From Antedon bifida (lineage: Eukaryota; Echinodermata; Crinoidea; Comatulida; Antedonidae), in contig OY727096.1 of assembly GCA_963402885.1 (NCBI GenBank), positions 32,655,820 through 32,719,819 of the forward strand: 64,000 nt of DNA, written 5' to 3'. A program made the position numbers and the translations under genes. The first letter of the stretch is position 1. Every line of letters begins with the position of its first letter. Below are positions 48,101 to 64,000 of the stretch, in pieces. The notes under the pieces were generated by a model. The model worked only from the letters and a program-made list of their open reading frames with translations, searched no databases and was not told where the DNA came from.

Positions 48101-51100
48101 AAACAAGGATAAGGTATACAATAGTTATCATCTAGAAAAGATGAAACCAAATTAACAGGGAAATATTTCCAGATATATACTGTATTCAGATACTTAAGAG
48201 AACAGCAGTTGTATATGCAATACTCTAAATGTTTCAATGGGCATGTCTCCAAAAAAGGCAATAAAAACAAATATAGTAATAAAATGATTCTCATATACCT
48301 GTTTCGCAGAACATTCCACTGAAACCAGCGACACATATGCACACAAAACTTCCAACAGTATTAACGCAAGTTGCGCCGTTCATGCAAATAGTGGAAGTAA
48401 CACACTCATCAACATCTGAAATTATATTAATCTAATTAGCATAATACAAGATTTATCCGTGATGTCAATATAATTGTTGTAATGTCACTATGATATATGA
48501 ATGACATCGAGTCTGTGATGTCACTATTCTGTTGTGATGTCACCATGACATAATTGCTGTGCTATGACAGGACAGAATTATTCCTGACATTTCATTATAG
48601 TACATTTTACAAAAAATGACAAATATTAATACAAAACCAATTATTTTAAATACAACACCACAACTAAAACCAGAATTCTATTTATAAAAAAAAAGAAGTT
48701 AGTGCAAATGGTGCATGCTATAAACAAGTCTACATACTTTATAAGCAAAGAAAAAATATTTATTATTATGTATTATTGTTAAAAGTAAAAAAATTATGAA
48801 AAGATGAAAAAACATGCAAGAGTGAAAAGAGAATTGAACAAAAGACATCTGCTTTATATTCAGAGCTCTGCTGACAATATACCACCCATGCTTTCAAGAC
48901 CTTTCTAATCTATAATGTTTATCACAATTTTTACTAGTCAAAATCATACATTAAAAAACGGTTACCAAGTAATACAAAATGTGTAATTTCTATAGCAAAC
49001 ACATATCATGCTAATACATATTCATAGAGACAATTAATGGACACTATCCACAATTAGGAGAACTTTTAATTTTGACAACCTGGAACATTGCATTACAAAT
49101 GTTCTATTAGGAAACTCCACTTGCTGTAGGGTTAGAGGATACCTTTCTTAGATATACATTTTTCTCTCAAAAGGCCCATTTACACTACGACGATAGCGAT
49201 CGACGATGACGATAGCGATCGACGATAAATAGATAAATATGCATTTCTTATATATTTATCGTCCTAGTGTAAATGGGCCTTAAGATAAAAAATGCAGTGT
49301 GTTTATGATAAACACATGTTAAAAATCAATTGTACAGGTTGCCATTGATTGAAAGCTCTCTATTTGCCTCACCCTGTTCGCACGTCGGTCCCATCCATTG
49401 CGAAGCACAAATGCAGATAAAGTTTAAAGTGTCTCCGATACACAGTGCACCATTACGACATGGGCCACTATCACAGGCAGTTGGTGTTGTTACTATAAAG
49501 AATACAGTAGTAAATTACTGCAGGACTGGGAAGCTTAATGAAAATGAACAATAATTTTTCTAGTTCTTCTACATAAATTGAAAAGCTCCTGAAGTAAGAT
49601 AAGACGACTAATTTCAACCACCTAATTCAACCGATCATCTTATGTATTATAGTACACAATATCCTTATCCTGAGGAAAATTTTAAAAAAAAATTAATTCT
49701 TTCTAAATTTAAAAATCTGAAATAAATTAAGAGAAAACAAGAACATTTGGAAATGCTTCTTCATTCAATTCCTCGACACAGTTTTAGCAGATGTTAGATA
49801 ACCAACTAAACAAATGCATAGGTAAAAGGGCATCACAAACTGAAACCACCTAAACATTGTCAAACTGTTAGAAATAAAGCTAATACATTAATGTACACAA
49901 AAACTAATTATACAATTGTTTTACACAAATATCGTAACATCTTACAAAAGTGTAATGCTACCTGTGTGTATTGACATTGCAGCAGCAATACCCAAAACTG
50001 TATGTGCATTAATAACAAAAGATAAATGACCAGTGAGTGATGAGGTAGTAAAGAATTATGATCTAGTACGAATGGTATTTAATGAAGAATCGTGAAAGTG
50101 ACATTTTGAATTACTGTATACACATTTAATTTAGCGAAAGTTATTGAGTAACTTTTAAATAAAATAATACAGTTGTAACTAAATGACAAAATATGTATTT
50201 AAAGTGTGCTATATACCATTAAGAGAAGTTAGCATATGTGAATTCAGATGTGCTGATTACAGCATAATGGTTGATATTAGTAATGAGAAATAAGTAATGT
50301 ATTTCGAGAGGCACTACCAATGATTTTTTGAAATTATAAATAGATTTTTAAAGTGCAATTCTCAATCCAGTGCAAATACAAGTAAGTATAGATGGTAAGT
50401 TTATGAAATATGACAAGTAAGTAATAGAGATAATTTGCATATGCAAAACAGGTGCAGAATATAACAAAATAGGTTACCTATTTCACACCGAGTTCCAACA
50501 AAACCGCTTGCACAGGTACAAATATAGGCGTTGACGAGATCGGTACAAGTCCCACCGTTAATACACGGTGAACTAATACACTCATCCGTTTCTATAGGAA
50601 AAGATAATATGACACTAAATTTAAAACCTTCAATTAATTAATAAATAAATAAAATAAAACCAAAGTATATTGGTTTCTAAGGTGGAACTATCAAAAGTGA
50701 AGGAGGACGACGTAAGCACTGAACTAGCTTTCACGTACAAAATACTATTTCCAAAACAAAAAAAGTAGTGCCATTCATACACGGTAAACTGGCAAACTCA
50801 ATAACGTCAATATCACAATTGACCCCTGTCCAACTTGATGGACAAACGCATTCGTAACCATTTATTCTTTCAATGCAAAATCCACCATTTTGACATGGGT
50901 TGCTGGAACACTCTTGAATTTCTATTATGGGATGGACAAGGAAAATGAAATGCTAAGTTTGATATGCACTTTTTTGATTAAGTTGTTCGGTTTTGTAAAA
51001 ATTAAATTAGTAAACAATAAACAATGATGAATCAGGAGATTTGCTAAAAGAAAAACAATAATGTTAATAGTGTTACAATGGAAAATATGAAAGAAAAATA

Positions 51101-64000: not shown

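Follow-up and report, generated by a model that had tools for sequence, protein, structure and literature searches.

The right-hand part of the window (the whole stretch of DNA analysed here, 64,000 nucleotides) is occupied by a series of near-identical EGF exons, which raises the question of what kind of gene carries them, where the series ends and how copies so alike came to lie side by side. An earlier note on this DNA had described a three-exon block (A and B with one EGF each, C with two) repeated with its introns, and direct repeats and exon calls recover the same block. The leading direct-repeat family at 48,000-64,000 comprises 8 copies spaced by 1722-2023 bp, in agreement with the unit length of 1.7-2.0 kb given in that note, and a second family, on exon A, comprises 8 copies spaced by 1436-2024 bp, the short step being the one that adjoins a truncated copy. 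The array lies on the minus strand, which the note had not said, so that its exons are read in the order C-B-A in the transcript, with GT-AG splice sites. Each unit consists of exon C (228 nt, two EGFs), exon B (114 nt, one EGF) and exon A (114 nt, one EGF), separated by introns of 116-136 bp (C to B) and 193-302 bp (B to A) and followed by an intron of 937-1131 bp that leads from A to the next C. The seven units and one decayed copy previously counted in the window are all present, as seven complete units and a truncated one at 50,921-50,478. The array does run off the window as proposed, and its true end can now be placed: it exceeds the window by one complete unit only, since BLAST homology between units ends at ~65,739 on that side (and at ~50,425 on the other). 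There are thus eight complete units, of which unit 1 lies beyond the window, and one truncated unit 9, with successive exon C starts 2005, 2023, 1832, 1722, 1724, 1788, 1835 and 1881 bp apart, the final step leading to the truncated copy.

C 65,731-65,504, B 65,367-65,254, A 64,971-64,858, minus strand: unit 1, 5′-most, beyond the window (exon calls, translation)
63499..63726, minus strand: unit 2, exon C, two EGFs (exon calls, translation)
63249..63362, minus strand: unit 2, exon B, one EGF (exon calls, translation)
62834..62947, minus strand: unit 2, exon A, one EGF (exon calls, translation)
60810..61703, minus strand: unit 3 (C 61476-61703, B 61226-61339, A 60810-60923)
59087..59871, minus strand: unit 4 (C 59644-59871, B 59394-59507, A 59087-59200)
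57365..58149, minus strand: unit 5 (C 57922-58149, B 57672-57785, A 57365-57478), Pfam EGF in all three exons
55641..56425, minus strand: unit 6 (C 56198-56425, B 55948-56061, A 55641-55754)
53873..54637, minus strand: unit 7 (C 54410-54637, B 54180-54293, A 53873-53986)
51914..52802, minus strand: unit 8 (C 52575-52802, B 52330-52443, A 51914-52027)
50478..50921, minus strand: truncated unit 9 (EGF 50815-50910, intact exon A 50478-50591)

In the truncated unit the acceptor and first EGF of exon C survive and exon A is intact; missing are the remainder of exon C including its donor, the C to B intron, all of exon B and the beginning of the B to A intron. No phase-1 donor for C lies nearby. Three further candidates concerning the units were rejected. 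A 300-base piece (exon A with flanking intron) found nine matches in the genome, all of them in the array, which leaves no wider family of the unit elsewhere; a single parent EGF outside the array did not emerge, the best identities being 62-69% with no clear parent; and an Rfam search of the window returned no match at gathering score for intronic RNA genes within the units.

All eight complete units translate to 152 residues (456 nt) without a stop. Since the modelled exon limits had been forced to phase 1, with a preference for the usual offsets, we ran a control free of both constraints that gives the three phases equal treatment and looks for an in-frame acceptor within 22 bases and a donor within 20 bases of each EGF. 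Such sites exist in phase 1-1 for 100 of the 101 EGF-exon candidates in the gene, as against 2/101 for phase 0-0 and 1/101 for phase 2-2, the sole candidate without phase 1-1 sites being the truncated exon C. Donors that match at least 4 of the 6 consensus positions are found for 76/101 candidates in phase 1, for none in phase 0 and for three in phase 2. The phase 1-1 structure and the 152 residues per block that had been read from the sequence are therefore upheld, and gain or loss of a block preserves the frame and shifts the protein by 152 residues.

The array was also said to lie within one gene. From the window, which lies at C9:32,655,820-32,719,819 of one 315.6-Mb, 27-contig assembly, and from its flanking genome we built a gene model of 105 exons that runs on the minus strand from 100,819 down to 21,190 (~80 kb) and reads in a single frame from a signal-like start to one terminal stop (17,775 nt, 5,924 residues). 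In order, the model encodes a signal, a Reeler domain, 144 EGFs, a CUB domain, four EGFs and the stop.

100819-100615, 92840-92621 and 92056-91992, minus strand: Reeler exons (Pfam on spliced join), beyond the window
21190..64000, minus strand: in-window part of the 105-exon model, its 5′ part (Reeler, further EGF exons) lying beyond the window
44608..47401, minus strand: third array, a single-EGF exon in six similar copies, between which lies one other EGF exon (47009-47104)
36579..37946, minus strand: second array, 12 EGFs in a single exon, of which 9 are near-identical 114-bp copies (direct repeats, Pfam)
23620..23982, minus strand: CUB exon near the C terminus, ahead of the last four EGFs (Pfam CUB, E 7.8e-13)
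21190..21203, minus strand: modelled last exon with the stop, four residues past the last EGF exon, chosen by eye and the weakest exon of the model

The Reeler domain is completed only by the three-exon join (positions 1-131 of 131, E 3.6e-28); taken by exon frame, the middle exon matches with E 9.8e-14 and exon 1 alone has no Pfam match. A Reeler search of the genome gave 12 matches, an exon of this gene among them. Ahead of the Reeler the model opens with a hydrophobic, signal-like start, judged by eye and from a hydropathy peak at the start. The 148 EGFs are spread over 100 exons, and the array contributes 33 of them, including that of exon A of the truncated copy. Exon length is divisible by 3 in 101/105 exons, the exceptions being the three Reeler exons and the last exon, and exon edges are uncertain for a minority of the EGF exons (acceptor off the usual offset in 14/100, donor in 6/100). 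The introns have a median of 373.5 bp and 102/104 are no longer than 1738 bp, the two larger ones measuring 5.4 and 7.8 kb. No clear membrane segment was found: past residue 40 the hydropathy over 19 residues peaks at 1.68, within an EGF stretch, a result that depends on the modelled last exon. Among the 148 EGFs, consensus patterns from the Notch literature occur 103 times for O-fucose, 102 times for O-glucose and 50 times for O-GlcNAc, and a calcium-binding-like pattern 53 times.

Outside the modelled exons there are 116 open frames of at least 48 residues on the coding strand, frames of a 39-bp repeat having been excluded beforehand. We scanned 114 of them with Pfam, two being dropped as they overran the edge of the fetched piece of sequence, in a scan that is blind to domains divided among exons of fewer than 48 residues. 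The matches were to one reverse transcriptase and to five EGF-type families with one member each; the scan took in the frame that covers the orphan EGF of truncated unit 9. The 39-bp repeat itself (25,164-29,804, ~119 copies, 97% matches) is open throughout, and we rejected a coding reading of it, as it is open on both strands and sits in a modelled intron between EGF exons. Dispersed tandem elements with periods of 121-123 bp and 196 bp and similar consensus occur at 9056-9420, 16733-17880 and 19189-19502 of the window.

To ask how the array evolved we compared its eight complete units. Mean pairwise dS is 0.087 and dN 0.021 (dN/dS 0.24), and the mean Jukes-Cantor distances of the introns (0.078 for A to C, 0.081 for C to B and 0.110 for B to A) lie near dS. 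The introns thus diverge like synonymous sites, and together with a dN/dS of 0.24 this places the protein under purifying selection. The exons of any two complete units are 95.2-99.6% identical, that is, they differ at up to 4.8% of bases, and introns differ between units at 2-17% of bases per 60-column stretch, with indels common to only some units; the B to A intron, for example, comes in two length classes, 193 bp and 282-302 bp, each represented by four units.

If these units had diverged along a single tree, few pairs of sites would conflict. The 138 informative ungapped sites form 9453 pairs, and 2710 of these (28.7%) are incompatible. When evolution without recombination was simulated 60 times along the neighbour-joining tree of the units, incompatible pairs averaged 4.3% and never exceeded 9.0% (simple substitution model; informative sites mean 114 vs 138 observed). 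The neighbour incompatibility of 0.190 is also lower than in any of 2000 permutations of the site order (mean 0.287). The affinities of a single unit also change along its length. In its B to A intron unit 7 most resembles unit 5 (98.4%), followed closely by units 4 and 6, and 8 sites group it with units 4-6; in its A to C intron 27 sites are common to units 1, 2 and 7 against the rest. The incompatibility beyond that of the simulations and the changing affinities show that sequence has been exchanged between copies, by unequal crossing-over or gene conversion. There is no clear edge effect of the kind that makes units in the middle alike and those at the edges divergent: the exons of units 4-6 are 98.9-99.6% identical, but the pair formed by units 1 and 2, which occupy the 5′ edge, is equally alike (exons 98.9% identical) and is the most similar of all in the A to C intron (99.2%).

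The same gene carries four further duplications beside the block array. The 114-bp EGF copies of the second array (36,789-37,842) lie within one exon, free of introns, and have a pN/pS of 0.13 by approximate count; the third array repeats a single-EGF exon; and two upstream block duplications, at 74,450-76,439 and 78,463-80,819, are mostly more diverged (76-92% identity). Elsewhere in the genome we found at least 170 EGF matches (150 scored of 2308 candidates), and a separate EGF locus at 31.82 Mb of the window's contig has 2353-bp units that are 99.8-99.9% identical, beside a 98.3% copy. With duplications elsewhere in the gene and in the genome, block duplication is not peculiar to this array. 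One gene therefore displays three modes of growth of an EGF protein: repeats within an exon, a single-EGF exon duplicated with introns, and multi-exon blocks. As side observations, the 114-bp EGF repeat is a coding minisatellite and may change length more readily than the large array, and the separate locus (C9:31820371-31828183) could be a very recent duplication or an effect of the assembly.

We consider it probable that the locus is one giant gene for a secreted multidomain protein, whose array grew by recombination between introns and serves as a rod or tether in the matrix. Along this route a single gene would give rise to a secreted protein with a signal peptide, a Reeler, 144 EGF domains, a CUB and four further EGF domains; a three-exon, four-EGF block would have been tandemly duplicated through recombination between introns; the resulting near-identical blocks of 1.7-2.0 kb would have been shuffled by unequal crossing-over or gene conversion while selection maintained the coding capacity of every copy; and the product would be a long, disulfide-rich extracellular rod or tether in the matrix, a longer array presumably making a longer rod. 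The layout of Reeler, EGFs and CUB is of the matrix or adhesion type, which sits well with the adhesion-type protein envisaged before the surrounding gene had been modelled. The product is best read as a matrix or adhesion protein that is secreted, very long and rich in disulfides, the matrix role being suggested by domain types only. EGF-rich proteins such as the fibropellins, Dumpy and octovafibrin work in extracellular layers, tethers and fibres, according to excerpts of PMC10336842 and PMC2930355.

Other readings would account for part of these data. The ~80-kb span of the model and the abundance of EGF-rich loci in this genome would be compatible with several adjacent EGF genes, the array belonging to just one of them, and the model could indeed comprise two or more genes. 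The only non-EGF domain in the scanned frames between exons is however the reverse transcriptase, and EGF exons succeed each other across the short introns described above, so that we regard this division as distinctly improbable. It is highly unlikely that the array is an artefact made of false copies from haplotypes or of sequencing stutter. It is known from one assembly, but its units differ in exons, introns and indels, by substitutions as well as by the two length classes of the B to A intron, and stutter would not give mosaic relations between them.

In well-known alternative-exon arrays the exons are diverged in sequence, whereas the splice sites and proteins of our eight copies are near-identical, and we think it unlikely that the units are alternative cassettes of which each transcript uses some, so that the array would yield isoforms instead of a fixed rod. 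Such use would be feasible, as the exons of complete units all fit phase 1-1 and any subset of them stays in frame, and a precedent exists in EGF-rich Drosophila dumpy, which is alternatively spliced and whose internal exons are divisible by 3 bar one case (excerpts of PMC2930355). A Notch- or Delta-type signalling receptor or ligand has very little probability in our view. The solved structures closest to the unit protein are EGF repeats of Delta-like 1 and Notch (23 distinct sequences, E up to 1e-10), but the model opens with a Reeler and ends with CUB, four EGFs and a stop, without a clear membrane segment, and the Notch-type EGF sequence it does contain is not specific to Notch or Delta, this EGF type being carried by many EGF-rich proteins. 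We take the nearness to these structures as probably reflecting EGF subtype.

How does the giant secreted protein that we favour compare with known systems? The C1s-like domain of sea-urchin fibropellins is of the CUB type, and a CUB domain is present in our model too. Fibropellins resemble it as EGF-rich extracellular proteins of echinoderms with such a domain, but have up to 21 EGFs, an N-terminal C1s-like domain and an avidin-like C terminus (PMC10336842, in excerpt), against 148 EGFs, an N-terminal Reeler and a CUB between EGF 144 and the last four EGFs here. An avidin search gave no match at this locus and six matches elsewhere in the genome (C13, C9 at 19.8-20.1 Mb, and C7). With no avidin at the locus and a CUB that is not N-terminal, the protein is by the features tested not a fibropellin. 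Dumpy is likewise a giant EGF-rich matrix protein with repeated multi-module units, and differs in having >300 EGFs, DPY modules, a ZP domain and a transmembrane domain (excerpts of PMC2930355); no ZP match by Pfam was obtained in the 9 proteins or 114 between-exon frames scanned here, and no membrane segment was seen. The load-bearing fibre protein octovafibrin of octopus has 29 tandem EGFs, far fewer than our model, and C-type lectin ends in place of Reeler and CUB (excerpts of PMC10336842). With secreted Reeler-domain proteins the model shares a complete Reeler after a putative signal peptide. The words reelin and reeler are absent from an echinoderm matrix review (PMC10381214), and, as weak evidence, none of the titles listed among open-licence papers gives an account of this gene or array.

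As a kind of structure the locus is a coding multi-exon tandem array, comparable to the kringle IV-2 repeat of human LPA as presented in excerpts of PMC11462820. The likeness lies in a multi-exon unit repeated with its introns, head to tail within one modelled gene, in the in-frame residues that each complete unit adds (8/8) and in recombination between units. The LPA repeat differs in encoding a kringle domain of a vertebrate plasma protein and in that its copy-number variation is established, whereas the EGF array here is read from one assembly. The array also agrees with the expansion of domain repeats surveyed in PMC1553488, as far as the excerpts of that paper go: in nebulin and EGF proteins several domains are added per duplication, often in the middle of the repeat, and EGF exon junctions are enriched in linkers. 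That survey used protein sequences and names EGF as one of the families in which the signal of duplication weakens with distance, whereas our units are DNA with introns.

Recombination between units makes copy-number variation between individuals, as the earlier note had supposed, plausible, and it is not evidence of variation today. We offer tentatively, as a possibility with somewhat less than even chances, that the locus is an LPA-like coding macrosatellite in an echinoderm, in which heritable differences between individuals in the number of four-EGF blocks and 114-bp repeats, and hence in tether length, would affect matrix mechanics or self/non-self adhesion. The assignment to echinoderms comes from mitochondrial sequence: COX1, on contig C27, contains six TGA codons in frame and has a COX2-like frame beside it, and these codons and proteins look echinoderm. 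As an invertebrate parallel to the LPA repeat, the locus would allow direct tests of length variation and of what such variation does to a matrix protein; if copy number is constant, it is a clear but ordinary case of gene growth.

Several neighbours of the gene were noted in passing. At window positions 12036-12896, on the plus strand, an open frame matches the uncharacterised Pfam family DUF6729 (E 1.2e-80) and is possibly a mobile element; the frame next to it (12892-13818) has no Pfam match. Left of the window, on the plus strand (L020:155-4828), a 1558-residue open frame carries PKD domains and the start of a REJ domain and is polycystin-1-like. Right of the window, on the minus strand, frames with a DNMT3-type ADD zinc finger and PWWP (L014:7662-8180, L015:1153-1509) seem to mark a DNA methyltransferase gene upstream of the EGF gene, and at ~122700-149000 there are repeated open frames, chitinase- or chitin-binding-like by eye, several of which are nearly identical.
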